Virus record (IMG/VR): IMGVR_UViG_3300037042_000214
Span: 1-40,466 of that record
DNA from: a virus
Strand: one strand, 5' to 3'
DNA length: 40,466 nucleotides
Made by a program: the position numbers and the translations under genes. The stretch's first letter is position 1; every line of letters starts with the position of its first letter. This document shows, in pieces, positions 6,125 to 38,393 of the stretch. The notes below the pieces were generated by a model. It searched no databases. It worked only from the letters and a program-made list of their open reading frames with translations, and was not told the origin of the DNA.

Positions 6125-6193
6125 GCGAGGTTACCTCCTTTTCCTCGTGTGTCTCTCCTCCCTTTTCCCCGGCTCCGCGCCGGGGTATTTTTT
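6125..6193 (+). ncRNA. Candidate small RNA with an anti-Shine-Dalgarno motif
   Basis: A possible ~69-nt transcript between the candidate promoter (6088-6118) and the terminator (6167-6193). It contains ACCTCCTT (6133-6140), identical to the anti-Shine-Dalgarno core at the 3' end of 16S rRNA, and a second pyrimidine run TCTCCTCCC (6154-6162). A weak CGAGG/CCTCG stem could display the first motif. Such an RNA could pair with the AAGGAG/GGAGG sites of the phage's own messages. It might instead be only the 3' untranslated end of the operon transcript. Confidence 0.35.
6167..6193 (+). terminator. Intrinsic terminator of the plus-strand replication operon
   Basis: CCCCGGC (6167-6173) pairs with GCCGGGG (6179-6185) around a TCCGC loop, and TATTTTTT follows to 6193. 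This is a strong intrinsic terminator for plus-strand transcripts. The tail overlaps the stop codon of the convergent giant gene on the minus strand. Read on the minus strand the stem is not followed by T, so it works in one direction only. Confidence 0.85.
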
Positions 6194-12100: not shown

Positions 12101-14126
12101 ACGGATTACGCTTGTATTTATCCTTGAACCTCTGCAGCCGCTCTGCGTCGGCTTGTTTCCGCTTGTCCTCTTCCGCTTTCTGCTGCGCGAGGTTACCCTC
12201 TATATCAATCTCGGTCTGCTGCTGCATTAGCGGCAGGGCCTCTACCACATCACCTACACCTGTGATGTTGCTCGTCTCAGCGACCCGCGTCAGAACTTCA
12301 CGGACCTTGGCTACATCGGCTTCGTTGTCGAGGTTAAGTCCTATCAGCGACCGTAGGGGCTTACTGCGTGTAGCAGACGGACCGAAGCCACGCACGAGCC
12401 AATCACGGGTTACGAGGTTGGGCTGCGCTGTTTCTATCGTCGTGCCAAACGTGTCTCCCTCGGGGGAGGGTGTAAGCTCAAACGCCGGTTTAGTAGGAGC
12501 AGGAGCAGGAGTAGGAGTAGGAGTAGGAGTAGGAGTAGGAGTAGGAGCAGGAGTAGGAGTAGGAGTAGGAGTAGGAGCGTCGAAATCAAACCCCATCTGC
12601 GTCTTGTCAGTATTAGCCATACTGCCGCTGCCCATGTCGAGGCGCTCGGTTTTGATGCGTACCGACTCAGTCAGGGCTTTAATCTTACCCAGTGCTGCGT
12701 CCATCTCCGATTGCGACTGCGCGTTACGGAAGTCAGTATTCGCGGCATCTAGCTTCTTATGGTCCGATTTCAGTTGCTTCTCGAGCTTCTGTTCGCCGGT
12801 GTCAGTGTACCCGCCGTAGCCTACTAAGTTCTTGTTCTCGTTAGCTATTTCAGTCTGGTATCGCTGCGCTTCTTCTAGGCGGCCCTGCGCCATCAGCTTG
12901 TCGCGCTCGACAGAGAGGGACGCTATGCGCGCTTTGGACGCACGCTGGCGCTCCAGAAGAATCTGCTCAGGCTGCACACCGCGGGATTCAGCCTCGTTCA
13001 GAACGTCACGCGTTAAAGTCTCTACGTGCGACTTAACAGTGTCAGGAGTTTCCTCGAACCCCGGCAACGTGGCGGTAGGACCGCCAGCCAGAATACGCTC
13101 GGATCTAGCCGCTTTGGCCTGCGCCGCGGCTGCTTCTGCTCGTTGGGCTTGCTGCACTTGCTGCTCTTGCGCTGCTGCCTTGGCGTCTGCGCGTCGCGCT
13201 TGCCCTACCTCCATGCGGCGGCCCGTCAAACCAAAGGCCGGGGAAAGCAGCGCGGCACCTACAGCGCTCTCCTCGTATTCGCCCATAGCTTCTTTGCCGC
13301 CTAACGGCAGCCCCGCCTGCCAACGCTCTAGCGCTTGCTGCGACACCTCGGCGGGCACTTCAGCGAGCAGCGTACGCCCAGTACCAACCCCCAACGACTT
13401 CATCCATCCTTCCGAGGACAGCTCCTTCGCGGCTTGCTTCGTAGCCTCTCGCTCCCCCATACCGAATAGACGCTGTAAACCTGCTACGCGCAGGGTCACT
13501 AAATCCAGCGCCGCCTGACCACCCGCGGCGACCCCAGCTTTGCCGAACTGCCATTCTGGCGCGGCTTGCCCCTGCTGCCGCGCAGCCTCACGCTCAGCGG
13601 CTTGACGACGTATGTCGCTGCCATAGTGCTCAAGCCCTAATAGGCCCGCAGCCGCGAGGCCGCCGACTAACTTCGCCTGCGGAGCTGGAGCATACCGTGC
13701 CGCAGCTAGACCCCCTAACGCCGCAGGTGCCATAGCACCAACGGACGATCCGAACCCCTGCTTACTTAGCCCCCACAGCTCCCTAGCCGCCTCGCCGTAT
13801 TCGCCTCTGTTAAACGCGCTTTTAGCGTCTCCCCATGCCCAGCTAGGATCCCCCGCGCCTTCGAGCTGCTTACGCTCTAGTTCGAGATTCCCCGGTTGTG
13901 CTGTCTGCTGCACTGCCCGCGCACTACCGACGGTTGCGTCCCCTAGCGCACGCTCGAACGACTCGACGAGCCCCGGTCGAGCGGCTTTCCACGCTTCCCT
14001 CTGCGGGAGTATGTCGTTTTCGATGGCCGATAAAATATCGGCGTCGCTCATATCGACAGGGAAGTTAATAGGCCCAATACCCGGGATGTTGATCGGCCTG
14101 ACGTTGCTCTTGGATTTAGTCGCCAT
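6192..14126 (-). CDS. Giant polyvalent ejection-type virion protein, 2644 aa (metallopeptidase-like, L,D-transpeptidase and ADP-ribosyltransferase domains)
   Basis: Last gene of the virion operon. Regions in order: an N-terminal segment with MSDADILSAIENDIL; a hydrophobic Ala/Gly-rich stretch (about 135-175); coiled-coil and Gln/Ala-rich parts; a Pro-Thr array (about 515-545); KVEP and PETQ arrays (about 808-955); a YkuD L,D-transpeptidase domain (about 1115-1290) with H1231 and ISQGCINV (C1260); a zinc-peptidase-like HEAGVHAGW (1440-1448); an ADP-ribosyltransferase domain (about 1572-1735; VYRG at 1591-1594, then GAGIYMTP and YNPTQVKSA); and a long helical C-terminus resembling LPD38 of phage polyvalent proteins, with a hydrophobic stretch (LAALGLLFAMAAG). 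Such proteins are packaged and ejected with the DNA. The transpeptidase may remodel peptidoglycan during entry and the transferase may modify host proteins; both are inferred. Confidence 0.85.
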   Translation of the reverse strand: MATKSKSNVRPINIPGIGPINFPVDMSDADILSAIENDILPQREAWKAARPGLVESFERALGDATVGSARAVQQTAQPGNLELERKQLEGAGDPSWAWGDAKSAFNRGEYGEAARELWGLSKQGFGSSVGAMAPAALGGLAAARYAPAPQAKLVGGLAAAGLLGLEHYGSDIRRQAAEREAARQQGQAAPEWQFGKAGVAAGGQAALDLVTLRVAGLQRLFGMGEREATKQAAKELSSEGWMKSLGVGTGRTLLAEVPAEVSQQALERWQAGLPLGGKEAMGEYEESAVGAALLSPAFGLTGRRMEVGQARRADAKAAAQEQQVQQAQRAEAAAAQAKAARSERILAGGPTATLPGFEETPDTVKSHVETLTRDVLNEAESRGVQPEQILLERQRASKARIASLSVERDKLMAQGRLEEAQRYQTEIANENKNLVGYGGYTDTGEQKLEKQLKSDHKKLDAANTDFRNAQSQSEMDAALGKIKALTESVRIKTERLDMGSGSMANTDKTQMGFDFDAPTPTPTPTPAPTPTPTPTPTPTPAPAPTKPAFELTPSPEGDTFGTTIETAQPNLVTRDWLVRGFGPSATRSKPLRSLIGLNLDNEADVAKVREVLTRVAETSNITGVGDVVEALPLMQQQTEIDIEGNLAQQKAEEDKRKQADAERLQRFKDKYKRNPSPDELKAINEGRWAEHDQEKADQTEMMFETQRQQEFENQPFGTQGEFGFGAMPADPVEPKPPAIAALLSDLRAARAEGNTDAVTDIEQLAKELYPAQWATAKYNAMSRKQGKLDVTTLQPKTEARKAAAAAKAETQPETQPETQPETQPETQPETQPETQVEPKVEPKVETQPEPKVEPVDVVATLTRLNEISAEAGNSKDGKAARKLRQGNDADAAAAFVKDYDTRRAAVEPKVEPKVEPKVEPKVEPKVETQPEPKVEPKVEPKVEPKVEPKVEPKVADEVADEFADYTTAELEDELISEQGSRSPDGARVKTLNAAIRARVIAENETTQNLSVQRRENLQNNARDALHGALSDADVELVTTHPQLGNGDYRTGIQKLQEYVAAMLGGSKLMHLKKVVRDLVAQIKQGMMSVAVALNFNVGAPITQVIVPVAPTTAYAQTVDTAGKSVSADARLIANHALNRGNGKAYFVVDKPNAVMHVFNGDGKLQFSTPVLVGAAKGDVMNPVDKAPYLYTAAEKITPAGEFSMEPYEDPNYGPAFRLAETATPHSFVAVHSVYLGSPAEVRNQRLATETTADNRISQGCINVPTNVAVKFGPMVASGDVAADSKIYVLPDSSRLTDVFPVGDNLSTSAGETTTTEFDPGMKPKSDREAYGKPEGLEPTDPYARKAPGKNPRYASARELGRDLINEFGGKTILAAINSGRLRVYESEADPRMTAKDRAIVAALKATGEADVSGFYEPYDDYVAVIASNTAKADGIKAAIHEAGVHAGWKAILGDALYSDAMSQIENALTSTQASPFRTAVQEAHEVALERAARSEHVAEERLAYLAERYPNMPLMRRILAAVRNWLRTKGIVTKFTADDLASLARGVAGKWMVQGGAKSAAAPKARVGTNGFNQWFKDSKVVDANGEPLRVYRGVDKDYGPTMRVGKDGALGAGIYMTPNPEFASTYASVVGGNVIPVYASLQNPLVIRTSGGVDPMVHALTLLGVARPKAEAIVEKAYDEQGYVGKQVMTRARAQGYDGLMQYRDGELTELVAYNPTQVKSAVGNDGSYSATSSNITARKSAPEATASEGGRILADTGYVAPPVDNRPASAKVKAAMAGYTPTKTLASNAYDWTMSKLDVAYATEKRIRARTEDYEAGEMATKLGLIAQIGHLRAVTGYALEGGGAEMGTDGYFKATNSEFSGNAIQQQLLDMAKVHGLTYHEARLFANSAMEARRVEGLYKAYDNAMERAAALEAAGKTKAAKQLRETAEMRVPRHMDRDTATKRLELFGAYPEIEEVVRLKNGMRKWIADFAVQSGVWARATADTLLENADWIPFRREFSEDEQASMDEARAYVTSKLQPTYKQAPFKGSEREVTDLTDNFEQWAMYMLHNSMRNATTSTLIADAVKFGAAEYVGDAKLGAENRTVRFFDNGVKKYALFDNPLEAAMFNANLADPEVSKFVRVFNQIFRNSIIAAPTFSAKQLFMDTQTAMLNSGLPPSFAAKLPGLVAKEMAALVRGERTEAHKVLRARGFAGSGTDVGVLQSEYLKKATGYHGDEAKDRSMFAKARDWGLEQAMHSDNAIRQALYITAKDAGWSETDAIKLAADIINFRRKTNSKTLTFFAAYTPFFTAAMASMRADLAVLGGRGLTSQSRGEVYKRYLQNASMLAALGLLFAMAAGDDEEYQNMSPEQRARQLTIPGMGGWGIPRRPSLTNLLPIAVEMMYNQTTDSASVDSKRLYTAASTLLIGAAAMPEPLPAPVRQLAEQAMNHNLFTGDALVGFSLSKVDAWRQFGSSTSSLARGWGETMEAVGLGNIAIASPVRVDHFLRGMFGAAGAMGLLTTNIVASTVGGRPAMSAKDFAASIPGFTMPGAREFNNSERNDMYDAMARLSKIATTANALKSEGNVEEYHKYVEAHREQLVANKQLERVSDQLAKIRKRIRIVTESDMPNDEKTTEIRRMKEIEAAYIKQLDIKGLRERVL
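11263..11413 (-). repeat. 12-bp tandem repeats coding for (KVEP)n in the giant protein
   Basis: The unit CTTCGGCTCTAC (plus strand) repeats about a dozen times, interrupted once by a TGGCTGCGTCTC (PETQ) unit. It encodes a charged Lys-Val-Glu-Pro linker. Because the unit is a multiple of three, slippage would change linker length without a frameshift. Confidence 0.9.
11564..11701 (-). repeat. 12-bp tandem repeats coding for (PETQ)n and (KVEP)n
   Basis: A second array of the same kind, mainly the TGGCTGCGTCTC unit (Pro-Glu-Thr-Gln) with a few KVEP units at one end. It is separated from the first array by a short folded segment coding for about 45 residues. The two unit types are mixed in both arrays, which points to exchange between them. 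Confidence 0.9.
12493..12577 (-). repeat. 6-bp tandem repeats coding for (Pro-Thr)n / (Pro-Ala)n
   Basis: The hexamer GTAGGA (with GCAGGA variants) is repeated about 14 times on the plus strand and encodes a Pro-Thr/Pro-Ala linker in the giant protein. On the plus strand it looks like a row of AGGAG sites, but no plus-strand gene uses them. It is a likely slippage site that keeps the frame. Confidence 0.9.
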
Positions 14127-21086: not shown

Positions 21087-21713
21087 TTAAGGAGGAGGGG
21101 GTGTCGGCCTAGGGTCGGGTATAGGCGCGATGAAGTTTACCGAAATAACGGACGAAGCGATACCCGGGTGTGGGGCCGCGGCGGGGGAGGCGTTAAGTAT
21201 TACGTTAGTGTTTGTAACGGACACGACAATTTCCATGTACTCGTTCACGTCCATGTCGATGTCGAATTCCCAAGTAACCGCGATACTCGACCCGGAACCA
21301 GACAGCGTGTAATCTCTGGATGAGAATCCTATATCTGTGCCGCTACGGCGCAGCCACACGAATATGTTCTTCGTACTGGCGTTCGTGCTCGTGAACTGCC
21401 CTGAGTACTGGAAGTTGTACACCCCCGCAATCCGGGCGTTAATCCGAGACGTATTAGATAAATCGACGCTGTTCGTCAGGTATGTGGCGTTGTATGCCAC
21501 AGGATACGCGGTGTCAGCAGCGGCAAACGTTTGATCCGCGGTGTTAAAAAACAGCCCGTAAGGGCAATCAATATACTGGCCGCCAATGGGGCCTAGGATC
21601 GAGCGGAATAGGGAGTCTAGTTTGCTGAAGTACAGCGTCAGGATGCTGACGAACCCCGACACCACCGGGGGCGGTATGCTAGGGGCTCTGGAGGGGATGA
21701 GGCTATTTCTCAT
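21087..21713 (-). CDS. Probable jelly-roll tail or fibre protein, 208 aa
   Basis: The ATG overlaps the stop of the preceding tail protein (ATGA). The N-terminus has a hydrophobic helix (VVSGFVSILTLYFSKLDSLF). From about 55 the sequence is beta-rich, with a pattern of C1q/TNF-like or phage jelly-roll domains: AGVYNFQYSGQFTSTNASTK, then IFVWLRRSGTDIGFS and EYMEIVVSVTNTNV. Such domains often form trimers at fibre tips or tail needles. The protein ends in a proline-rich tail (PDPRPTPPPP). By position next to the P22-gp10-like gene it may belong to the tail tip. Family inferred from the strand pattern only. Confidence 0.6.
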   Translation of the reverse strand: MRNSLIPSRAPSIPPPVVSGFVSILTLYFSKLDSLFRSILGPIGGQYIDCPYGLFFNTADQTFAAADTAYPVAYNATYLTNSVDLSNTSRINARIAGVYNFQYSGQFTSTNASTKNIFVWLRRSGTDIGFSSRDYTLSGSGSSIAVTWEFDIDMDVNEYMEIVVSVTNTNVILNASPAAAPHPGIASSVISVNFIAPIPDPRPTPPPP

Positions 21714-23575
21714 TTGCGCCCGTCAAGGCGAACATCAAACCGAGGAACGCCCAATCGCCATGTAACGCCCGCCGCATCAGACGCCACCCGGAACTCTAAC
21801 TGACGGCCACGCACGCGTACGAACACTTCGTTGGTGTACTGCTCAACGGGAACAGTGGAACTGCGCGTGACCGCACCGCCTGCTGAGTCGTATGTGGAAC
21901 CGGGGAACCGTCGCGCCTTGAACGTCATAGTCACGGTGGGGGTGGATGCTGTGGAGCCGTCGAACGTAATATCTGGTACGACCCGGTTGATGAGCCCGAA
22001 CTTGTCCCCCGTATCCAACGAAAAGTCAGACGAGTCGAGGTAGGACGCGATGGCCGTGACCGGATAGGTCGTAGCGTCATCAACGCCGTAGTCCTGTATG
22101 TACAAGTACCCTTTCTGCGTCGATGTGCTATACACCCCCGCCATCGGGTTAGACTTAAGCGGGGAGTCCATCCACACCGTGCGACCCATAGAGCCTATTA
22201 CCCATGTGTTTTCCACATAGTTGAACACGACGTAGCGGTCGTTGACGAGCGAGCTCCCGGACGGATAGTGCCACCAGATCTCGTTGAACTTCTCACTCTG
22301 CCCGCATGTAACCTGCCATGCTTGGTCCATATTCAGGCTGTCGAACACGTAGGACTGAACAGCGCATGGGACGGGCTGCACATTACCGCCGTACGTATAG
22401 AATTTATCACGCCCCATCCAGAACGCCGTGTTGTTGACGACGATAGCCGCGTTGGGGCCCATGATGGATAGGTTGTCCGCGAGGGTATTAAACCCGAAAA
22501 CGTACGGCGGCCCGAGGTACTGCATGGAGAACAACGCCGCGTCCGACCAGATCAGAATCTCTTGCCGTGACTGCTTGGCGCACACGAGGTACGACCCGAC
22601 GCTCATCAACTGGCTACCCGCTTGCGTAGTCGCCTTCGGCTCCCATTCCAGATAATCTTCCTGATCGCTCCACCGTACCAACATCGGGCTCGCGGTCGTA
22701 GATCCGTAGTCATTAGAGCCTAGAGTGATAACAAAGCGCGACTGGTCAGAGACGAGGATGTAGTTCTGGTATAACGGCACGTGGTTCGCGCCGGGAAGTG
22801 ACGAAATGAGGCTGCCCCGAACAAGTAGAGAAGCGGTACTGGTGTATTCCCAGTAGTACAGACCACCGCCACGGGGGCCAAACACTACCGCGCTACCGTA
22901 GGTAGCTACGTTCCACAAGCGCAACTGATACCCGACACCTACAGTGGTGCCAGAACCCCATGTGTCGCGCCCGTAAGTGCCCGCACCCCAGCCCGTACCG
23001 AGGGTGTAGATCGCGTTGCCAGTCAATACTTGGTATGCTGCAGAGACAGCCGCACCGCCCGCACCCGTATCCGACCCGTTAGCCGTGGCCGTGGCCGTGA
23101 ACGTATATGTACTACCAGAAACGTAGGCGACCTGATACTCTTGATTCAGCACCGCGGCGGTGATGTTTCCACCGAGGGATACCGCCCCAGAGAACGTAAC
23201 GAAGTCCCCCGTCTGGACTGTATGTCCTGCGTCTGTAACCGTAATGACCGCGGAGCCAGAAATAGCTGCGAACGGATTGGCAAGAACGTTAGTCTCGTCT
23301 AACGGAGTGATGTCGTTGTAGGCTGCGCCCGACTCCATGTAGAACTTAAGGTTGGTCCCCAGCGCGGTTAGTGTAGCGCCGCAGGAGCACTGGAACGCCA
23401 GAGCGGTACGCGCTACGCCCCAAAACTCCAAGGGGGAGTAGTATGCCCACCCGCCTATCTTTTCCGGTGTTCCGTACTGGAACCGCACCTTATCGCAGTC
23501 GAACCAGCTACCTTCGGTACTGTAGTCAGTACCTTCTTTGTTAATTCCCGGCTTGCACTGGACCTTCTGGAGCAT
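21710..23575 (-). CDS. Tail accessory / packaged-DNA stabilisation protein (P22 gp10-like), 621 aa
   Basis: The N-terminus (KPGINKEGTDYSTEGSWFDC, then DKVRFQYGTPEKIGGW) is typical of the P22 gp10-type tail accessory proteins that close the head after DNA packaging and form the tail hub. Residues about 100-190 contain a repeat-like beta insertion (DAGHTVQTGDFVTFSGA, then YTFTATATAN) of the kind labelled FCCH in some databases. The remainder is Trp/Tyr-rich beta-propeller-like sequence (MLVRWSDQEDYLEWEPK). GAGGTGATAC precedes the ATG. It follows the holin gene by 9 nt and overlaps the next gene by ATGA. The assignment supports a short-tailed virion. Confident about the family, less so about exact placement in the tail. 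Confidence 0.75.
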   Translation of the reverse strand: MLQKVQCKPGINKEGTDYSTEGSWFDCDKVRFQYGTPEKIGGWAYYSPLEFWGVARTALAFQCSCGATLTALGTNLKFYMESGAAYNDITPLDETNVLANPFAAISGSAVITVTDAGHTVQTGDFVTFSGAVSLGGNITAAVLNQEYQVAYVSGSTYTFTATATANGSDTGAGGAAVSAAYQVLTGNAIYTLGTGWGAGTYGRDTWGSGTTVGVGYQLRLWNVATYGSAVVFGPRGGGLYYWEYTSTASLLVRGSLISSLPGANHVPLYQNYILVSDQSRFVITLGSNDYGSTTASPMLVRWSDQEDYLEWEPKATTQAGSQLMSVGSYLVCAKQSRQEILIWSDAALFSMQYLGPPYVFGFNTLADNLSIMGPNAAIVVNNTAFWMGRDKFYTYGGNVQPVPCAVQSYVFDSLNMDQAWQVTCGQSEKFNEIWWHYPSGSSLVNDRYVVFNYVENTWVIGSMGRTVWMDSPLKSNPMAGVYSTSTQKGYLYIQDYGVDDATTYPVTAIASYLDSSDFSLDTGDKFGLINRVVPDITFDGSTASTPTVTMTFKARRFPGSTYDSAGGAVTRSSTVPVEQYTNEVFVRVRGRQLEFRVASDAAGVTWRLGVPRFDVRLDGRK

Positions 23576-25020: not shown

Positions 25021-25413
25021 CTAGCATTTTATCTTAGTCGCCCATTTATGCGCGTCCTTTGTTGTGACCCGCACATCATATCTGATTGGAGGCTCGAACA
25101 TGTCGTTGGTGTCTGCGTAGCGAGACTCCGTTATGGTATCCACCCACACAAGGAGGTCGGCAGCGAACCTATTGCGGATTGCTTCTGTAGGGGCCACGAA
25201 GTCGCATATAACCACATCTGTGGTGGCTTCCCCTGCCAACTTCCGCATCCGCTCTACCTGCCGCAATCGACCCCCCGGCGAGAAGTCCCAATCGTTGTAT
25301 CGGGCGCGTACCTCGTCAGCGTTGAACCACGTGACTGACGGCAAAAGCGCGGTCAGCGTCTTAGCCAGCGTGGTCTTGCCGCTGCCGGGTAGCCCGAAAA
25401 TCAGCACGATCAC
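25021..25413 (-). CDS. APS-kinase-like P-loop kinase, 130 aa
   Basis: P-loop GLPGSGKTT (7-15), then NADEVRARYNDWDFSPGGR (31-49) and a strand VVICDFVAPTEAIRNRF (67-83). This order closely follows adenylylsulfate kinase (CysC), where the D-x-R and D-F-S-x-x-x-R elements bind APS. It is shorter than bacterial CysC (about 200 aa), lacking part of the C-terminal region, but ends with the expected VWVDTI and YDVRVTT strands. CysC makes PAPS, the sulfate donor of sulfotransferases, and a sulfotransferase gene lies about 1.6 kb upstream. The GTG start overlaps the previous stop (ATGTGA). It could instead be a nucleotide or polynucleotide kinase with the same fold. Confidence 0.68.
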   Translation of the reverse strand: MIVLIFGLPGSGKTTLAKTLTALLPSVTWFNADEVRARYNDWDFSPGGRLRQVERMRKLAGEATTDVVICDFVAPTEAIRNRFAADLLVWVDTITESRYADTNDMFEPPIRYDVRVTTKDAHKWATKIKC

Positions 25414-25793
25414 ATCAAGGCATCCAGTTCGTCGTGGCTCGTACAGGCTTCGATGGCTACAATCTTCGGAGCAACAGCATCTTTAGCCGCTTGCAGCGCA
25501 ACGGGGTCGTAAGCCATCGGGTCATGCATCTGTTTCTGCATTTCTTGTTGGAAGCCCATAGACGCATTCAGCTTCATGCCCGCCTTGCGATCGTCCACAG
25601 CAACATCGTAAGTGCCATAAACGATGCCTACTGGATCAGTAGAGAGATCAAAGGTATGAGCGGTATAGCCTTGACGATGCGCTGTGATAGCCGGACGGAC
25701 TTCGACGGCGGACCGCCAGCCAGATTCCCCGGCAGGTGGTTGTGTGTCCCAGCATTGTGTAACTTCGTTATTTACGACTTTTACATAAAACAT
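25410..25793 (-). CDS. Hypothetical fibre-associated protein, 127 aa
   Basis: The start ATG follows ACAGGAGAATCAAA. The N-terminal half is beta-rich with Trp and Pro (MFYVKVVNNEVTQCWDTQPP, then ESGWRSAVEVRPAI). The C-terminal half is helical with Met, Gln and Asp (MGFQQEMQKQMHDPM, then AKDAVAPKIVAIEACTSHDE). Short two-part proteins directly downstream of fibre genes are often assembly chaperones, and this one follows the third RCC1 gene. I cannot match a specific chaperone family, so the role is position-based. It overlaps the kinase gene by 4 nt. Confidence 0.5.
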   Translation of the reverse strand: MFYVKVVNNEVTQCWDTQPPAGESGWRSAVEVRPAITAHRQGYTAHTFDLSTDPVGIVYGTYDVAVDDRKAGMKLNASMGFQQEMQKQMHDPMAYDPVALQAAKDAVAPKIVAIEACTSHDELDALM

Positions 25794-25817: not shown

Positions 25818-27026
25818 TTAACCGCGAGTGATGGCTATGGTGTGGGCGTAACCACCCGCGATGCTTGACCAAGTGGTCAACGCTCCGACTTGGACAGGGC
25901 TGGAGCGGTCGGTGGTATCACCTAGACCTAGTTGACCGTAGAGGTTAAATCCCCAAGTCCACAGCGTGCCATCGGTCTTACGGGCAATGGTGTGGTAGCT
26001 GCCACCCGCGATGCTTAACCATGTGGTTAACGCTCCGACTTGGACAGGGCTGGAGCGGTTGGTGGTATCCCCTAGACCTAGTTGACCGGAGCTGTTACGG
26101 CCCCAAGTCCACAGCGTGCCATCTGTCTTGGTGGCGATGGTGTGGGCGTAACCACCCGCGATACTTAACCACGTGGTTAACGCTCCGACTTGGACAGGGC
26201 TGGAGCGGTTGGTGGTATCACCTAGACCTAGTTGACCGTAGGGGTTATATCCCCAAGTCCACAGCGTGCCATCTGTCTTACGGGCAATGGTGTGGTAGAA
26301 ACCACTCGCGATGCTCAACCAAGTGGTCAACGCTCCGACTTGCTTCGGTGAGCTGTATTGGGTGGTGTTACCTAGACCTAGTTGACCGTAGGCGTTATTG
26401 CCCCAAGTCCACAGCGTGCCATCTGTCTTACGGGCGATGGTGTGGAAGCCGCCACCCGCGATGCTTGACCATGTGGTTACCGCCCCGACTTGCTTCGGTG
26501 AGTTGTATTGGGTCGTGTTACCTAGACCTAGTTGACCGTAGGCGTTATATCCCCAAGTCCACAGCGTCCCATCTGTCTTAGTGACGATGGTGTGGTAGGC
26601 ACCCCCCGCGATGCTTGACCAAGTGGTCACCGCTCCGACTTGGACAGGGCTTAAGCGGGTGGTGGTATCCCCTAGACCTAGTTGACCGAAGTCGTTACGG
26701 CCCCAAGTCCACAGCGTACCATCGGTCTTACGGGCTATGGTGTGGTAGCCGCCACCCGCGATGCTTGACCAAGTGGTTACCGCTCCGACTTGCTTCGGTG
26801 AGTTGTATTGGGTCGTGTTACCTAGCCCTAGTTGACCGTAGTTGTTCCAGCCCCAAGTCCACAAGTATTTATTCAAGACGGGTTTAGGCCATTGTCCTAG
26901 TTTCTCGTAGCTCATCGCTTGGTCGAGCGTCCATATTCCGGGTGCAGAGCCGCCTTCTCCATCTACGGGACCGACAACTGTGGGGGGCGTTTTGGAAATG
27001 ATTCCGCCGGGCCAAGTTTGGCTCAT
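25818..27026 (-). CDS. RCC1 seven-bladed propeller tail-fibre protein C, 402 aa
   Basis: The N-terminus has a fibre-type head (MSQTWPGGIISKTPPTVVGP, then APGIWTLDQAMSYEKLGQWP) seen in phage tail proteins. Seven RCC1 repeats of 50 residues follow, each with the core WTWGxNxxGQLGLG, then S-P-x-Q-V-G-A, W-x-S-I-A, H-T-I-A and K-T-D-G-T. Seven blades make a closed beta-propeller like RCC1 itself. Blades differ almost only at WG-x-N-x-x-G and SIAxG-x-x, which should lie on neighbouring surface loops. AAGGAG precedes the ATG, and its start overlaps the end of the sulfotransferase gene. It is likely a receptor-binding or decoration protein. Propeller call is firm; binding role inferred. Confidence 0.85.
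   Translation of the reverse strand: MSQTWPGGIISKTPPTVVGPVDGEGGSAPGIWTLDQAMSYEKLGQWPKPVLNKYLWTWGWNNYGQLGLGNTTQYNSPKQVGAVTTWSSIAGGGYHTIARKTDGTLWTWGRNDFGQLGLGDTTTRLSPVQVGAVTTWSSIAGGAYHTIVTKTDGTLWTWGYNAYGQLGLGNTTQYNSPKQVGAVTTWSSIAGGGFHTIARKTDGTLWTWGNNAYGQLGLGNTTQYSSPKQVGALTTWLSIASGFYHTIARKTDGTLWTWGYNPYGQLGLGDTTNRSSPVQVGALTTWLSIAGGYAHTIATKTDGTLWTWGRNSSGQLGLGDTTNRSSPVQVGALTTWLSIAGGSYHTIARKTDGTLWTWGFNLYGQLGLGDTTDRSSPVQVGALTTWSSIAGGYAHTIAITRG
25840..26870 (-). repeat. Seven 150-bp RCC1 blade repeats, gene C
   Basis: Seven tandem 150-bp units, each with a conserved CCTAGACCTAGTTGACC core (plus strand; one unit has CCTAGCCCTAG) and CAAGTCCACAGCGT. The framework is nearly identical at the DNA level, including silent positions. 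Blades 1, 3 and 4 are the NTTQYNSPK/NTTQYSSPK type; 2, 5, 6 and 7 are the DTTxRxSPV type. Confidence 0.93.
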
Positions 27027-28795
27027 GAGACACTCCTTAATTTTGGCTGGGCAGCGGAGAGGGTCCCGGCAATCGCATCGAACGGTGCTTGCCAGTCGCC
27101 GAATGTTTCTTGCCGAAATAATTTAACTGTATCGTAGTAGGGGCAAGTCTCGCCTTCCGCTGCCCACAGGAAATATGGCATTATGGGTGTGACGATCCAT
27201 GTCTCTACGCCCATCGCAGCAGCCAAGTGCGCCACACTCGTACAGGACGAAATGACGATGTCACACGATGCTATTGCTGCTCTAGTGTCTTCCCAAGAAT
27301 TCAGCGGCATTTCCTTGACCCAACCCGGTCGCACCTCTAGGTCTGCATCGCGTTGCAGCGAGATGAATTCAGCGTCCGCGCACTTTACGGCGTGGAACAG
27401 CAACTCCGCCGGGAACAGCTTGTGGTGCTCGTGTTCGAACGCCTTCTGCCCAGACCAGCGCAGCCCGATGCGCTTCCTACGCGCCTTGATTGTCTTCGGC
27501 TTGGCGATATACGGCTTACCCGAGATGTCCTCAAGCTCCAGCCCCAAAGGAACCACAGCCGACATGCCCTGAACAAAGTAGTCGTGGTAGATGCCGAACG
27601 CTGCCTCGTGCTGGATGACAGCAGATACGCCCTCTACACCAACAAAGAGCGATGCCAATGCGCCGGTACAAGCGACGATGACTTTACATCCCTTGTCAGC
27701 TATCAACTTGGCATACCTAACTTGGTGGATTTGATCGCCAAGACCGCCCTCCAGGTACAGCATTACCACACCCTTGCTCTTACCGTCCCATGGCAAAGTC
27801 GGCACATCGGGTCGCTTGTCGCCGAACGCATTGACCTTACGGCCCCTGTCCATCAACTGGTAGCCCTTTTGGATCTGCCCTTGACGCAGGTAGTACCAGC
27901 CATGGTTACACGCCGCACGGTCGTTGGTTGGCTCCTCGGCTTCAAGTTTTTGAGCCATACGCCAGCCTTCGGCAAAATCGCCAATAGTTGACGCTGCTAG
28001 TTGCACGTCTAGGTCGTGTAGTTCTGGTACGGTTCTTGGCGTATCCAGCCAAAACTCTGGCTGGCAGAAGGTGGTGTAGTGATGCTTGAGCAAGTCGCGG
28101 GGGTCTTGATGGTGTTGTGCCTCCAGTTTTGGCTTAACATCGTGCATACCGGCTGTGCCATGCAACTGCTCGTCGTCCTCAGCCACAGTAGAGCCGTCGA
28201 TGTTATCGAAGTCGTACTCGAAGTCTGGCAGTTCCAAGAAGGCGTGGACTCTTTGCAGTTGGGCTTTGGGGGCTGCAATAAGGTCTTCGTACTCAACAAA
28301 CAAGAAGTTTTCAGGCGCGTAGTTGTAGCCGTTTTGCAGCGAGACATACGCAGCCTTCAGGTGATCTATCAACTGCCCCGAGGCCATGAACTCGTCTAGG
28401 TTATCGGGCTTGGCAATGCGAACGAACGATGCAGCGCAATCAGGAACAGAGCGCACCGTTGCAATAATCTTCGGAGGGTGTCCAAGCACCTGCTCCATAG
28501 CACCCATGATTTGCGCGATAGGCCAACCGCGTGATTTATCAATCACTACCGGAGCCTCTGCGTCCTCGTAGAACGCATCAATCATGCCCCGCATTGTTTG
28601 TGCGAGCTTGGAGCGGTCTCTATCGTTCTCGTTTAAGAGGCCAGCGGAATGCCAAGTGTTCGCCAATCCATCCAGCGCATGAACCAACCCAGATGTCGTG
28701 CTGACATGCGTCTGCGGGTTTTGATTGAGGATAGCCGCGAGAACTGTAGAGCCGCTGCGCGGGATGCCTGAGAGAAAGTGAAGTTGTTTTTTCAT
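27023..28795 (-). CDS. Sulfotransferase - glycosyltransferase fusion enzyme, 590 aa
   Basis: Start chosen at the ATG 28795, 1 nt after the stop of the preceding RCC1 gene; an alternative ATG lies 9 nt upstream and overlaps that gene. The N-terminal domain (about 1-240) is a PAPS-dependent sulfotransferase: the 5'-phosphosulfate loop LSGIPRSGST (8-17) and the 3'-phosphate segment ATVRSVPDCAASF (112-124). A TPR-like helical linker (about 285-330; CNHGWYYLRQGQIQKGYQLM) leads to a GT-B-type glycosyltransferase domain (about 335-580) with GGLGDQIHQVRY and CTSVAHLAAAMG, as in heptosyltransferase-like enzymes. The pair could add sulfate and sugar to a carbohydrate or to the RCC1 fibres. The domain order is clear; the substrate is unknown. 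Its end overlaps the next RCC1 gene. Confidence 0.8.
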   Translation of the reverse strand: MKKQLHFLSGIPRSGSTVLAAILNQNPQTHVSTTSGLVHALDGLANTWHSAGLLNENDRDRSKLAQTMRGMIDAFYEDAEAPVVIDKSRGWPIAQIMGAMEQVLGHPPKIIATVRSVPDCAASFVRIAKPDNLDEFMASGQLIDHLKAAYVSLQNGYNYAPENFLFVEYEDLIAAPKAQLQRVHAFLELPDFEYDFDNIDGSTVAEDDEQLHGTAGMHDVKPKLEAQHHQDPRDLLKHHYTTFCQPEFWLDTPRTVPELHDLDVQLAASTIGDFAEGWRMAQKLEAEEPTNDRAACNHGWYYLRQGQIQKGYQLMDRGRKVNAFGDKRPDVPTLPWDGKSKGVVMLYLEGGLGDQIHQVRYAKLIADKGCKVIVACTGALASLFVGVEGVSAVIQHEAAFGIYHDYFVQGMSAVVPLGLELEDISGKPYIAKPKTIKARRKRIGLRWSGQKAFEHEHHKLFPAELLFHAVKCADAEFISLQRDADLEVRPGWVKEMPLNSWEDTRAAIASCDIVISSCTSVAHLAAAMGVETWIVTPIMPYFLWAAEGETCPYYDTVKLFRQETFGDWQAPFDAIAGTLSAAQPKLRSVS

Positions 28796-28796
28796 G

Positions 28797-29924
28797 TTAT
28801 CCATTAGTAAGGGCGATGGTGTGGTAGCCGCCACCCGCGATGCTTGACCAAGTGGTTAACGCCCCGACTTGGACAGGGCTGGAGCGGTTGGTTTCATCGC
28901 CTAGACCTAGTTCACCGTTGCCGTTATTGCCCCAAGTCCACAGCGTGCCATCTGTCTTGGTGGCGATGGTGTAGTAGCTGCCACCCGCGATGCTTGACCA
29001 AGTGGTCACCGCTCCGACTTGGACAGGGCTTAAGCGGTTGGTGGTATCCCCTAGACCTAGTTGCCCTTGGATGTTATAGCCCCAAGTCCACAGCGTGCCA
29101 TCTGTCTTACGGGCGATGGTGTGGTAGCCGCCACCCGCGATGCTTGACCAAGTGGTTAACGCTCCGACTTGGACAGGGCTGGAGCGCTCGGTGGTGTCAC
29201 CTAGACCTAGTTGACCGGAGCTGTTACGGCCCCATGTCCACAGCGTACCATCTGTCCTAGTGGCGATGGTGTGGAAGCGGCCACCCGCGATGCTTGACCA
29301 TGTGGTTAACGCTCCGACTTGGACAGGGCTGGAGCGGTTGGTGGTATCGCCTAGACCTAGTTGACTGTAGTTGTTAAGGCCCCAAGTCCACAGCGTACCA
29401 TCGGTCTTACGGGCGATGGTGTGGAAGCCGCCACCCGCGATGCTTGACCAAGTGGTTAACGCTCCGACTTGGACAGGGCTGGAGCGGTTGGTGGTATCTC
29501 CTAGACCTAGTTGACCATAGGGGTTCCATCCCCAAGTCCACAGCGTGCCATCTGTCTTGGTAGCGATGGTGTGGTAGACACCACTCGCGATGCTTAACCA
29601 AGTGGTTAACGCTCCGACTTGGACAGGGCTGGAGCGGTTGGTGGTATCTCCTAGACCTAGTTGACCGTTGAGGTTGTATCCCCAAGTCCACAGCGTGCCA
29701 TCGGTCTTACGGGCGATGGTGTGGAGGCCGCCACCCGCGATGCTTAACCATGTGGTTACCGCCCCGACTTGCTTCGGTGAGTTGTATTGGGTCGTGTTAC
29801 CTAGACCTAGTTGACCTTCGGCGTTATATCCCCAAGCATACAAAAACGGCTGCCCCGTCCATGTCCCGGCAGCAACGGCTTGCATCTGCGCTTCGAGTGA
29901 CCACATGCCAGAATAATTAGCCAA
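28797..29924 (-). CDS. RCC1 seven-bladed propeller tail-fibre protein B, 375 aa
   Basis: A short head (MANYSGMWSLEAQMQAVAAG, then TWTGQP) is followed directly by seven RCC1 blades. The start is TTG at 29924, supported by a strong site, AGGAGGT/GGAGGT, at 29930-29935; the next in-frame ATG would cut into the head. Blade variable sites read YNAEG, YNLNG, WNPYG, LNNYS, RNSSG, YNIQG and NNGNG. Blade 4 has the only serine in place of the last glycine, and blade 7 has GELGLG. The head motif SGMWSLEAQMQ is a common anchor in aquatic phage fibres. It is followed at once by the sulfotransferase gene. Confidence 0.85.
   Translation of the reverse strand: MANYSGMWSLEAQMQAVAAGTWTGQPFLYAWGYNAEGQLGLGNTTQYNSPKQVGAVTTWLSIAGGGLHTIARKTDGTLWTWGYNLNGQLGLGDTTNRSSPVQVGALTTWLSIASGVYHTIATKTDGTLWTWGWNPYGQLGLGDTTNRSSPVQVGALTTWSSIAGGGFHTIARKTDGTLWTWGLNNYSQLGLGDTTNRSSPVQVGALTTWSSIAGGRFHTIATRTDGTLWTWGRNSSGQLGLGDTTERSSPVQVGALTTWSSIAGGGYHTIARKTDGTLWTWGYNIQGQLGLGDTTNRLSPVQVGAVTTWSSIAGGSYYTIATKTDGTLWTWGNNGNGELGLGDETNRSSPVQVGALTTWSSIAGGGYHTIALTNG
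28830..29860 (-). repeat. Seven 150-bp RCC1 blade repeats, gene B
   Basis: The same 150-bp unit as in genes A and C. Only blade 1 is of the NTTQYNSPK type; blades 2-7 are DTTxRxSPV (DETNRSSPV in blade 7). Several units are nearly identical to units of the other two genes, which points to exchange between genes. Confidence 0.93.
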
Positions 29925-29939
29925 GATGTACCTCCGGTA

Positions 29940-31322
29940 TCATGCCGATGTTTTGATGGCGATGGTGTGGTAGCTGCCACCCGCGATGCTTGACCAAGTG
30001 GTTAACGCTCCGACTTGGGCAGGGCTGGAGCGATCGGTGGTATCTCCTAGACCTAGTTGACCGTAGGTGTTTTGGCCCCAAGTCCACAGCGTGCCATCTG
30101 TCTTAGTCGCGATGGTGCAGTAGCCGCCACCCGCGATGCTTAACCAAGTGGTTAACGCTCCGACTTGGACAGGGCTGGAGCGGCTGGTGGTATCCCCTAG
30201 ACCTAGTTGACCGTAGACGTTCCATCCCCATGTCCACAGCGTGCCATCGGTCTTACGGGCGATGGTGTGGACCGTACCACTCGCGATGCTCAACCAAGTG
30301 GTCAACGCTCCGACTTGCTTCGGTGAGCTGTATTGGGTGGTGTTACCTAGACCTAGTTGACCGTGGACGTTCCATCCCCATGTCCACAGCGTACCATCTG
30401 TCTTGGTGGCGATGGTGTGGGCGTGACCACCCGCGATGCTTGACCAAGTGGTTAACGCTCCGACTTGGACAGGGCTGGAGCGGTTGGTGGTATCACCTAG
30501 ACCTAGTTGACCGACATTGTTATATCCCCAAGTCCACAGCGTGCCATCGGTCTTGGTGGCGATGGTGTGGCCGTAACCACCCGCGATGCTTGACCAAGTG
30601 GTTAACGCTCCGACTTGGACAGGGCTGGAGCGGTTGGTGGTATCCCCTAGACCTAGTTGACCGTTGCTGTTACGGCCCCAAGTCCACAGCGTGCCATCTG
30701 TCTTACGGGCGATGGTGTGGGTGCCGCCACCCGCGATGCTGGACCATGTGGTTAACGCTCCGACTTGGACAGGGCTGGAGCGGTCGGTGGTATCTCCTAG
30801 ACCTAGTTGACCTAAGGTGTTATAGCCCCAAGTCCACAGCGTGCCATCTGTCTTACGGGCGATGGTGTGGTAGGTGCCACCCGCGATGCTTAACCAAGTG
30901 GTTACCGCTCCGACCTGCTTAGGTGAGTTGTATTGGGTGGTATTACCTAGACCTAGTTGACCGTAGTTGTTACGGCCCCAAGTCCACAAATAAAAGCCAG
31001 CCGGAGTCACACTATTACTCGCCGCACTCCCAAGGCTATTTCCATAGGCATTCAACGCGGCCACAGTAATTGTATAGGGCGCATCGGTTGTCAACCCAGA
31101 GACAGTGATTGGCGATGATCCGTTAGATGCACTAACCGTGGTTCCGTCTGATGTTTTCTTAGCGGTGGCGACATAGCCTGTCACCGTCCCAGCAGATGCG
31201 GTGAATGTTACAGTCGCGCTTGTCTCGCCGCCAATGGATGCCTCCCCGATAACTGGAGGATTTGGTGCAAGAGCACCATTCCAACCGGGCCTGTTTATAC
31301 CTGCCTTGTATCGCATTGACAT
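29940..31322 (-). CDS. Fibronectin-III plus RCC1 seven-bladed propeller fibre protein A, 460 aa
   Basis: A head (MSMRYKAGINRPGWNGALAP) is followed by a fibronectin type III domain (about 22-108; ATVTFTASAGTVTGYVATAK, then PYTITVAALNAYGNS) and seven RCC1 blades (about 110-455). FN3 domains are common spacers or carbohydrate contacts in phage fibres. Variable sites read RNNYG, YNTLG, RNSNG, YNNVG, WNVHG, WNVYG and QNTYG. Blades 1 and 5 are NTTQY types. GAGG lies upstream of the ATG. It is the first of three RCC1 genes in transcription order, and each carries a different head, so blades and heads look like separate modules. Confidence 0.85.
   Translation of the reverse strand: MSMRYKAGINRPGWNGALAPNPPVIGEASIGGETSATVTFTASAGTVTGYVATAKKTSDGTTVSASNGSSPITVSGLTTDAPYTITVAALNAYGNSLGSAASNSVTPAGFYLWTWGRNNYGQLGLGNTTQYNSPKQVGAVTTWLSIAGGTYHTIARKTDGTLWTWGYNTLGQLGLGDTTDRSSPVQVGALTTWSSIAGGGTHTIARKTDGTLWTWGRNSNGQLGLGDTTNRSSPVQVGALTTWSSIAGGYGHTIATKTDGTLWTWGYNNVGQLGLGDTTNRSSPVQVGALTTWSSIAGGHAHTIATKTDGTLWTWGWNVHGQLGLGNTTQYSSPKQVGALTTWLSIASGTVHTIARKTDGTLWTWGWNVYGQLGLGDTTSRSSPVQVGALTTWLSIAGGGYCTIATKTDGTLWTWGQNTYGQLGLGDTTDRSSPAQVGALTTWSSIAGGSYHTIAIKTSA
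29955..30990 (-). repeat. Seven 150-bp RCC1 blade repeats, gene A
   Basis: Seven tandem units with the same DNA framework as in genes B and C, giving 21 units over the three genes. Blade 5 (NTTQYSSPK, with SGTVH) closely resembles blade 4 of gene C (NTTQYSSPK, with SGFYH) along its whole length apart from the variable codons. Confidence 0.93.
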
Positions 31323-31335
31323 CGCGTTGCCTCTA

Positions 31336-31710
31336 TCAGGAGATTTCGTCCCAGCTACAGGTCACGACTAGATCATTCGCGGTTCCAGCAGTCGCGCCGA
31401 TGCTCATATTTTCTTTGAGGTACACGGCAGTCGTTTTATCTAGCACGATCAAACTCGCATCAGACGGCACAGAGATGGTGGACGCGACTGGATACGCCGT
31501 ACCCCCGAGCGAAGCTGCGGAGTAGATGTTGATTGTGATGTCCGCCGCCGATGCGCCGTCCACATTAGACACAACGATGCTGTTGATTTTCAGCACCTTG
31601 CCGCTTGAGGCAGCGTTGTTGACCAGTTGCGTTGCGCTGGTAGTGGTCAGCGAAGTGTTCGAGATGTCTCCATAAATGGAGGCTACTGCGACGATGTTAG
31701 GGTTTGCCAT
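31336..31710 (-). CDS. Small beta-rich virion protein, 124 aa
   Basis: ATG with GGAG upstream in a short gap. The sequence is a compact beta-sandwich-like protein (ITINIYSAASLGGTAYPVAS, then IVLDKTTAVYLKENMSIGA), with alternating Thr/Val/Ser and no charged clusters. I recall close relatives in marine and freshwater phages next to tail-fibre genes, usually labelled structural. The VLDKTTAVYLKENMSIGATA strand pair is typical of these. It probably decorates the fibre base or tail. No enzymatic motif is present. Function inferred from context. Confidence 0.6.
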   Translation of the reverse strand: MANPNIVAVASIYGDISNTSLTTTSATQLVNNAASSGKVLKINSIVVSNVDGASAADITINIYSAASLGGTAYPVASTISVPSDASLIVLDKTTAVYLKENMSIGATAGTANDLVVTCSWDEIS

Positions 31711-31722
31711 GTTTGCTGCTCC

Positions 31723-32499
31723 TTAAAAGCCCATGACCATCGCCAACGCGATAGATGTGCCTGCTGAAATGCCGGATGATGCGGTGGTGAACGCTAAATT
31801 GCCTGCGCCATCAGTTTTTAAGACTTGGTTCGCTGTGCCGTCGGCGATTGGAAGGGTGAGGGAGAACGATGCAGCTAGTGCGTCTGCTGACTTCAGCGTC
31901 ACTGTATTGACACCGTTGTCGGTGTCCTCAGCCAAAACCAAGCTCGACCCTGCGGTCGCTGTGCCAGCCACTGTAACCGCCCCAGTGAACGTCGCCGCCC
32001 CCGTGTCGCTCAGTGTCGCGCCTGTAGAGTTCTGAAGCAACGCACCCGTGGTGCCATCAAACCGCGTAAACGCGTTATCTGTGGAACTCGTAGGGGCTAC
32101 AACACCCACAAACACAAAATCCGATCCGTTCCACGCCACTAGAGCATTAACTCCAGCTGCTAGGCTCACACCTGTAGTAGCTGCGCCTTTGACGACCACC
32201 GCGGCGTTAGATTGGTTAACGACTACGTATGCCTTTGAAACGCTTGGGGCGATGATATTGCGGCTTACGCCCGGGGAGCCTGTGGGGATCAATAGGGCAC
32301 AACGCGCTTCGTTAACGGCCCCAGAGCCGGTAGTGGAGAGGGTCCAGTCTGCCGCACCAACACTCGCAGTCGCAGTCGCCGCGATGGCATCCTCAATGAG
32401 CTCAGTGATACTGTTGTTTACGGTCGTGCCCCAAGTCCCCGACAGCTCGCCGGTTACTGGAAGAGCGAGCCCTAAAAGGGTCGTATATGAAGTTGCCAT
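31723..32499 (-). CDS. Tail-fibre-type protein, 258 aa
   Basis: ATG with TTAGGAGCAAGC upstream. The N-terminus MATSYTTLLGLALPVTGELSGT, shortened here as TTLLGLALPVTGELSGTWG, is a common opening of phage tail fibres. The middle is beta-rich and includes FTRFDGTTGALLQNSTGATL, a triple-beta or knitted fibre-like stretch found in many tail fibres, followed by GAATFTGAVTVAGTATAG repeats. It ends in a short Ala/Ile-rich segment. It is likely a trimeric shaft protein. Its place just upstream of three propeller genes fits a fibre complex in which it could be the stalk. The partner relation is inferred. Confidence 0.75.
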   Translation of the reverse strand: MATSYTTLLGLALPVTGELSGTWGTTVNNSITELIEDAIAATATASVGAADWTLSTTGSGAVNEARCALLIPTGSPGVSRNIIAPSVSKAYVVVNQSNAAVVVKGAATTGVSLAAGVNALVAWNGSDFVFVGVVAPTSSTDNAFTRFDGTTGALLQNSTGATLSDTGAATFTGAVTVAGTATAGSSLVLAEDTDNGVNTVTLKSADALAASFSLTLPIADGTANQVLKTDGAGNLAFTTASSGISAGTSIALAMVMGF

Positions 32500-37529: not shown

Positions 37530-37558
37530 TTTATAGCACTAAGATTTTTGGGTGTCAA
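37530..37558 (-). promoter_or_regulatory. Sigma70-type promoter for the tail/fibre block
   Basis: On the minus strand: -35 TTGACA (37558-37553), 17-nt spacer, -10 TATAAA (37535-37530). The -35 matches consensus fully and the -10 at five of six. It overlaps the last codons and stop of the homing endonuclease gene and points at the gene at 37253-37438. A 14-bp palindrome covers the predicted start. Confidence 0.75.
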
Positions 37559-38393
37559 CGGTGCCATCGAGGTACTTAAACTGCAGCCCGGCGAACCGCC
37601 CTTTAGAGATCGGCTGCGCTGACACAAGTGCTCTACGAAGCGCCACCATCTTCATACCGTAGTGCTGTATAGCCGCGGTCAAGCTAGGGAACTCGTGGTT
37701 ACCTGTGACCTCAGCGACGCGCTTACGCATCTTAGTCTTAGTCTCTTCTGTGTGGGTTCTACCAAGGAAATTTGTGTTGCTGAGCATACGCGCCCTAATA
37801 GCTTCGCGCTCCGCGGCGGTGCGCTTATACCCTTTAGCGCATTGGTTTCCTTTTAGCGCCGCTGACATCTTGGCGCGGGTTTCCGCTGACGGGATAAACC
37901 GTCCACCCCGCCCTTCAGCAAGCGCAGTTTGCACTTTAGCGCTAATCTTTTCACGGGTTTCTGCCGAGTGTATACACCCCGTACGGGGGTCTGGCTGGCG
38001 CAGCCGTGCTTCACGCAGCTTCTGTTTAGCCGCGGCGGACATTGGTCTTCCGTAGTTCGGGTGATCTTCTGGTTTACAACCGCGCCACGGAGCTTTAGAC
38101 GCGAGCCCGTGGTTATAACAGTGGTCTTTGCCAACGTGCACACTAAGCCAAGCATCTTCCGCGAGTTCTAAGTCGGTAGGGCCCGCGCTCTCCGGCAAGC
38201 GCTCCACAATATCGAACTTAAAGCACTCTTCACCATACTTGTTCCACGCGGCTTGCAAGTGGGCGCAGTGATGTGTACCTCTACGCAACCTCCCTCTATG
38301 GGTGCGGAACCTCTCGCGCGTGTTTGTGGTGCTACCTACATAAAACTTCTGGTTAACGATGTTTTTAATTACGTATATGACTGCCGCTTTCAT
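37539..38393 (-). CDS. Free-standing GIY-YIG homing endonuclease with NUMOD3 repeats, 284 aa
   Basis: GIY-YIG nuclease domain (about 1-95): VIYVIKN (5-11), FYVGST (17-22), R28 in the RERFRTH segment, the catalytic Glu in LELAEDAWL (76 or 79) and HCYN (91-94). Three NUMOD3-type DNA-binding units follow (HSAETREKISAKV about 142-154; PSAETRAKMSAALKG about 168-182; HTEETKTKMRKR about 214-225), then a C-terminal helix-turn-helix-like SLTAAIQHYGMKMVALRRAL. Such genes copy themselves into relatives lacking them by cutting DNA at the site. No intron is seen, so it is free-standing, lying between the capsid terminator and the tail promoter. GGAG precedes the ATG. The family call is firm; activity is inferred. 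Confidence 0.88.
   Translation of the reverse strand: MKAAVIYVIKNIVNQKFYVGSTTNTRERFRTHRGRLRRGTHHCAHLQAAWNKYGEECFKFDIVERLPESAGPTDLELAEDAWLSVHVGKDHCYNHGLASKAPWRGCKPEDHPNYGRPMSAAAKQKLREARLRQPDPRTGCIHSAETREKISAKVQTALAEGRGGRFIPSAETRAKMSAALKGNQCAKGYKRTAAEREAIRARMLSNTNFLGRTHTEETKTKMRKRVAEVTGNHEFPSLTAAIQHYGMKMVALRRALVSAQPISKGRFAGLQFKYLDGTVDTQKS

Follow-up and report, generated by a model that had tools for sequence, protein, structure and literature searches.

The stretch of DNA considered here (the window) is a whole IMG/VR virus record of 40,466 bases, which is classed as linear and is possibly a fragment. Three genes on its minus strand encode proteins in which a head of differing type precedes seven RCC1 blades, recognised in each open reading frame as seven PF00415 stretches. 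Gene C (29940-31322) encodes 460 aa, with the blades at residues 113-460 and an FN3-type head at residues 1-112 (30987-31322), in which the FN3 domain covers residues 31-101 (PF00041, E 4.6e-8) and an AlphaFold2 (AF2) model places strands within residues 24-91. Gene B (28797-29924; 375 aa, with a TTG start assumed) has a head of 28 aa, and gene A (25818-27026; 402 aa) one of 55 aa. The gene A head (26862-27026) resembles the N-terminal end of a ConA-like lectin protein encoded among the tail genes of phage DSL-LC04 (tblastn, 43% over residues 1-51, E 2e-4). The original prediction took the three propeller genes to be adjacent, which is true of B and C only, because the gene at 27023-28834 sits between B and A. 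This gene, also on the minus strand, encodes a 603-aa fusion of a TPST-like sulfotransferase (PF13469, E 2.6e-17), a TPR region and a GT-B enzyme that resembles SPY, OGT, TibC and heptosyltransferases in Foldseek comparisons.

Further genes on the minus strand frame this module. Directly upstream of the propeller genes lies that of a small protein (31336-31710), a homologue of the DSL-LC04 'putative lectin' by 75% identity and synteny. A tail-fibre-like protein (31723-32499) matches in sequence the intramolecular-chaperone protein of DSL-LC04 and, over a short C-terminal part, tail fibre-like proteins. Directly downstream of the module is a small conserved gene, recognised by synteny (25410-25793), and the downstream border is formed by a small P-loop kinase-like gene (25021-25413; PF13671/PF01583), which is syntenic in many relatives. 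A tail stabilization/hub-like structural protein is encoded near the module (21710-23575; 37% to the DSL-LC04 'stabilization protein', with a match to phrog_3287, virion structural protein). The gene order is kept in relatives, running from the small protein at 31336 through propeller genes, the enzyme gene at 27023 and one or more further propeller genes to the genes at 25410 and 25021. Among 82 other RCC1 loci scanned, the small protein at 31336 was present in 43 and the 25410-25793 gene in 31; the latter had no match in the phage collection searched.

In the lake phage DSL-LC04, the large ConA-like lectin protein is encoded in the corresponding region; the match between its residues 1-51 and the gene A head suggests that an attachment head is shared and that the binding parts can be exchanged. 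In the cultured cyanophage S-SRM01, the gene for a 'long tail fiber protein distal subunit' is followed by the RCC1 genes, among which stand one gene for a TPR protein and one for a sulfotransferase. The module of the window lies, as would be expected of tail adhesins, within a block of tail-appendage genes, and its heads are of the tail type. Judged from gene order and similarity, this context supports a role as tail adhesins, which it fits without proving.

The three genes hold 21 blades, seven per gene, with a period of exactly 50 codons. Pfam RCC1 (PF00415) matches seven stretches in each gene with E-values of 2e-98 to 6e-95, and Tandem Repeats Finder gives a period of 150 with scores of 1222-1418, far beyond chance, so that the predicted 21 copies of a 150-bp blade are borne out. 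The two variable clusters that had been predicted in each blade correspond to columns 5, 7 and 8, within WG-x-N-xx-G, and to the pair at columns 38 and 39, which stands before the H in SIA(G/S)G-xx-H. The combination of residues at these five columns is different in 21 of the 21 blades, and each propeller contains 35 variable residues (five columns in seven blades). The framework is common to the paralogues A, B and C and is near-uniform, as expected, but the claim that it is almost identical even at silent positions was overstated: among the 21 blades the silent divergence amounts to pS 0.22, equivalent to 82% identical codons at positions with the same amino acid, and two linked haplotypes are found at columns 15-23, N..QYNSP.K (NTTQYNSPK) and D..NRSSP.V (DTTNRSSPV). 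More framework polymorphism is present at columns 28, 32 and 44. The two haplotypes at columns 15-23 alternate among the blades and are common to all three genes (25840-26880, 28811-29840 and 29958-30988).

With regard to the fold, the AF2 model of gene C, for which the input was an alignment of 34 window and locus proteins, is a closed propeller with a mean pLDDT of 92.4 and a pTM of 0.85. The nearest solved structures identified with Foldseek are UVR8, the RCC1-like domains (RLDs) of HERC1 and HERC2, and RPGR, with target-normalised TM values up to 0.90. Both results support the expectation that seven blades close one propeller. The blades are four-stranded in the model (DSSP, for example 131-136, 142-148, 152-157 and 162-166). 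In all seven of them, columns 5-8 begin the loop following a blade's last strand and columns 37-39 form the turn joining the second and third strands; from the strand order of the antiparallel meander, these two elements would share one face. On the other side of the disc, the turns at columns 25-29 and 46-49 show little variation within the window. At the level of the model, all 35 variable residues of a propeller are confirmed to lie in two loops of one face. None of them falls in the propeller core, a location that would speak against contact loops; the variable columns are surface loops on a single face.

An alignment with UVR8 places column 5 at W94, W198, W250 and W302, column 7 at D96, column 38 at W233, W285 and W337, and column 39 at R286, residues that lie at the UVR8 dimer interface (PMC7455749, PMC5091643). 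The equivalent of column 3 in this alignment is the buried W ring of UVR8 (PMC7455749, PMC5091643). The variable face is thus, as far as the alignment indicates, equivalent to the dimer-interface face of UVR8. UVR8 and RCC1 (4dnw, 4d9s, 1a12) have the same fold as the phage propellers, but their function is unrelated and their blades are individually diverged; Ran guanine-nucleotide exchange, the function of eukaryotic RCC1, is not expected in a phage protein. The blades of BLIP-II consist of three antiparallel strands (PMC6121496), whereas those of the phage protein have four in the model.

Scans of IMG/VR yielded hundreds of related phage arrays. Exactly seven blades were counted in 177 of the 184 RCC1 ORFs of a first set, and in 337 of 395 complete arrays (about 85%) under wider sampling and stricter blade counting. 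In certain phages (L033, L042, L078) the separate RCC1 genes, of seven blades each, number seven or eight and mostly stand one after another. Across the related phage arrays, columns 5, 7, 8, 38 and 39 rank 1-5 for within-array diversity, and only one of 10,035 within-gene blade pairs is identical at all five positions. A search of IMG/VR with the framework DNA pattern gave only three single matches, from which it follows that the window has no close relative there. Bacterial RCC1 arrays have the same variable columns as the phage arrays, so that the variable face is a general property of these prokaryotic propellers; the pattern therefore marks a binding face generally and is no proof of a phage-receptor role. 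The myxobacterial and Bacteroidetes arrays L184, L190, L215 and L227 combine young scaffolds with the same diversified loop columns.

In the window, loop codons have a pN of 0.55, as against a pS of 0.15 in the same codons and of 0.22 in the framework. The ratio of loop pN to framework pS is 2.5 (bootstrap 2.1-3.0), a value that is approximate, since recombination violates the tree assumptions when pN/pS is taken across repeat copies, and that is probably an underestimate because loop pN is near saturation. Loop pN is about 0.54-0.66 in all arrays, irrespective of scaffold age (pS 0.14 in young scaffolds, above 0.55 in old ones). The third base of the loop codons is nearly constant in each column (T in column 5; C in columns 7, 8, 38 and 39), beyond what codon usage would give (p<0.001 in four columns, p=0.009 in column 8), and first and second bases are randomised beside these frozen third bases. 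As loops that simply predated the homogenised scaffold would be expected to show scrambled third bases too, the loops appear to have been diversified since the last common ancestor of the blades. Their composition is depleted in K, E and M and enriched in Y.

Comparable evidence comes from twelve near-identical phage pairs with a framework divergence of at most about 3%, which are relatives of the window and not the window itself. In these pairs, an amino-acid change is present in 21 of 411 codons of the loops and in 22 of 3664 of the framework (OR 8.9, p=9e-11), a concentration in the loops that is the opposite of substitutions spread evenly over the blades, the outcome that would have counted against the original prediction. 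Changes of more than one base account for 13 of the 21 in loops and for 4 of the 22 in the framework. Furthermore, amino-acid replacement is more frequent per codon in the loops (21/411) than silent change is in the framework (51/3664).

In some of the near-identical pairs, replacement within one blade covers 6 to 21 codons and includes silent changes, several other blades being identical, which is the mark of short-tract recombination. The tracts are located in blade 5 for L061/L259, in blade 2 for L064/L067 and in blade 7 for L064/L248. Other loop codons in near-identical phages are swapped whole, with no flanking silent change. Several pairs present zero loop change, and the loops are mostly identical where one phage was recovered from more than one sample, so that constant hypermutation is not at work. 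Linkage within the blades of the window has an r2 of 0.56 within 10 bases and of 0.02 at 30-60, with a partial return to 0.14 at 60-100. An exact-match search of the collected loci for donors of the replaced loop tracts returned only the array itself, sister phages and same-contig copies.

The replaced tracts carry loops along with silent changes, and conversion hence probably spreads loops and does not just polish the scaffold. It had been proposed that gene conversion keeps the scaffold uniform while the loops vary. The variation of the loops stands, but uniformity does not describe the system as such: in most related arrays the scaffolds have diverged at silent positions (median pS 0.63) and the loops are equally diverse, and a uniform scaffold is therefore the recent state of a minority of arrays. 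This uniformity is caused by amplification, conversion or both, and is not a requirement.

The three genes probably encode tail-appendage adhesins, which would form a receptor-binding repertoire that owes its shape to blade amplification, recombination over short tracts and diversifying selection; we infer their presence in the virion, their contact with a receptor and host range as the selective force. Each protein would consist of a virion-attachment head and a closed seven-bladed RCC1 propeller, in which the loops at columns 5-8 and 38-39 of all blades would present 35 variable residues for contact with a receptor on the surface of the bacterial host. Diversity would arise by ordinary mutation and by short-tract recombination between blades of the same array, of paralogous arrays or of those of other phages, with the common scaffold supplying the homology. 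Loop variants would be kept by selection for changed receptor contacts and the scaffold by purifying selection, and an occasional re-amplification or conversion would reset the scaffold to near uniformity, as in the window. Of the predicted repertoire, the loop-concentrated change, the mapping to one face, the tail context and the head shared with a lectin protein are retained, the uniform scaffold as its operating system is given up, and binding itself is putative.

Were the variable face an unconstrained surface, amplified blades would drift neutrally in the loops while folding held the scaffold. Near-identical blades that arose by recent amplification are common among propeller families, RCC1/BLIP-II with its viral members included (PMC9218822), and variation at the same columns in bacterial arrays would also be in keeping with drift. 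Drift, however, predicts a loop pN no higher than the silent pS, and is disfavoured by the excess of loop pN (0.55) over the pS of the same codons (0.15) and of the framework (0.22). Nor does it account for frozen third bases beside randomised first and second ones, for the depletion of K, E and M with enrichment of Y, or for loop amino-acid changes that outnumber framework silent ones per codon in near-identical phages, and we regard it as improbable. The fixed third bases, which make the loop codons resemble NNC/NNT, are superficially like AAY-derived codons of a diversity-generating retroelement (DGR), and a targeted hypermutation of this kind would rewrite loop codons from a template. Nevertheless, reverse transcriptase (PF00078) was absent from the window and from 46 other records with arrays (0 of 47, some of them maybe fragments), while control genomes matched; the conserved AAC at column 6 (21/21) and the silent A of CTA at columns 11 and 13 (42/42) are unmutated beside the loops, and the loops mostly shared between copies of the same phage in different samples point the same way. 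With no reverse transcriptase in these records and with adenines near the loops intact, an adenine-directed DGR is essentially refuted; a non-canonical mechanism driven by a template would require a copy of that template, and targeted hypermutation as a whole has hardly any likelihood.

A diversified face could also track a variable host protein other than a receptor, if the propellers were anti-receptor or superinfection-exclusion proteins, secreted or host-retained anti-defence proteins, or BLIP-II-like inhibitors. One member of this propeller group, BLIP-II, acts as a secreted inhibitor (PMC6121496, PMC9218822). The host surface could be where the sulfotransferase-GT partner acts, and the presence of three to eight paralogues in a phage would be in keeping with a repertoire directed at several targets. 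The position of the genes inside the tail-appendage block, the likeness of their heads to other tail proteins and the RCC1 genes adjoining the tail-fibre gene in S-SRM01 argue against such a target, which is rather unlikely, and in favour of tail adhesins.

If the propellers are tail adhesins, the enzyme encoded between them could act on them. The N-terminal half of the 27023-28834 product has tyrosylprotein sulfotransferases as its top Foldseek matches, and the C-terminal half (TPR and GT-B) has SPINDLY, OGT, TibC and WaaC/F. The enzyme is mostly 58-82% identical across relatives and is regularly associated with RCC1 arrays, which it adjoins in the majority of related phage loci; elsewhere among phages, each half has a gene of its own. 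The enzyme or one of its halves is found in 76 of 117 phage array loci (67 with the sulfotransferase, 74 with the GT and 65 with both), as against 0 of 80 tail-hub control loci without arrays and 0 of 80 bacterial array loci. This association, together with fold neighbours among TPSTs, SPY/OGT and TibC, supports the tentative proposal, possible although not the likelier outcome, that the enzyme modifies the propeller adhesins post-translationally and that recognition would proceed via a face both diversified and sulfated or glycosylated. The enzyme may instead modify host surface polysaccharide. Modified propellers, if real, would be a phage tail-fibre modification system, and so frequent a partner enzyme points to a possible chemical modification of tail proteins. 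Sulfation of loop tyrosines, as deduced from composition, is unsupported, given that the Tyr content of the loops is independent of the enzyme (16.7% in loci with it and 17.1% in loci that lack it, compared with 23% in bacterial arrays).

Recently amplified RCC1/BLIP-II propellers are known, a few of them viral, and share with the phage propellers PF00415, seven blades and the near-identity of blades (Pereira and Lupas, PMC9218822, available text); that text describes no phage tail module, no one-face diversifying positions in hundreds of arrays and no sulfotransferase-GT partner. The WD40 repeats of the Podospora NWD genes het-d and het-e undergo concerted evolution within and between paralogues, as the phage blades may do, and in both systems a few surface codons per repeat are under diversifying selection (Paoletti et al. 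2007, PMC1805685). The 69 NWD repeats comprise 55 combinations at four positions (PMC1805685), compared with 21 in 21 at five positions in the window. NWD proteins are fungal self/non-self receptors with a WD40 fold, a variable repeat number and RIP mutation (PMC1805685), whereas the phage propellers have the RCC1 fold, a tail context and a blade number nearly fixed at seven. For the phage phAPEC6, its authors suggested a DNA-ordering role of the eleven RCC1 proteins (PMC7247149), a proposal that face-specific diversity fits poorly. In PMC12906663, RCC1 is merely part of the designations of algal strains.

In the literature searched, a scope outside which most subscription papers fall, no description of diversified RCC1 propellers serving phages as tail adhesins was found. 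The T-even gp38 adhesins are alike in that conserved scaffold motifs flank hypervariable segments at the receptor-binding tip, which are exchanged by recombination; they differ in their fold and in being one adhesin per phage, as against several multi-blade propellers here. Besides DGR-diversified proteins and gp38-type tips, phages may thus have another protein solution, in which a rigid scaffold is kept and a whole binding face is varied; each propeller has 35 variable positions, a phage has as many as eight propellers, and the environmental arrays number in the hundreds. How phages make host-range variants without dedicated mutators becomes directly testable in this setting. Elsewhere in the window, the gene at 6192-14126 encodes a polyvalent protein of 2644 aa, in which ART-PolyVal and LPD38 are recognised and YkuD is matched weakly, and contains several low-complexity DNA repeats (11235-11707, 12492-12577); a homing-endonuclease-like gene (37539-38393) adjoins the major head protein gene.
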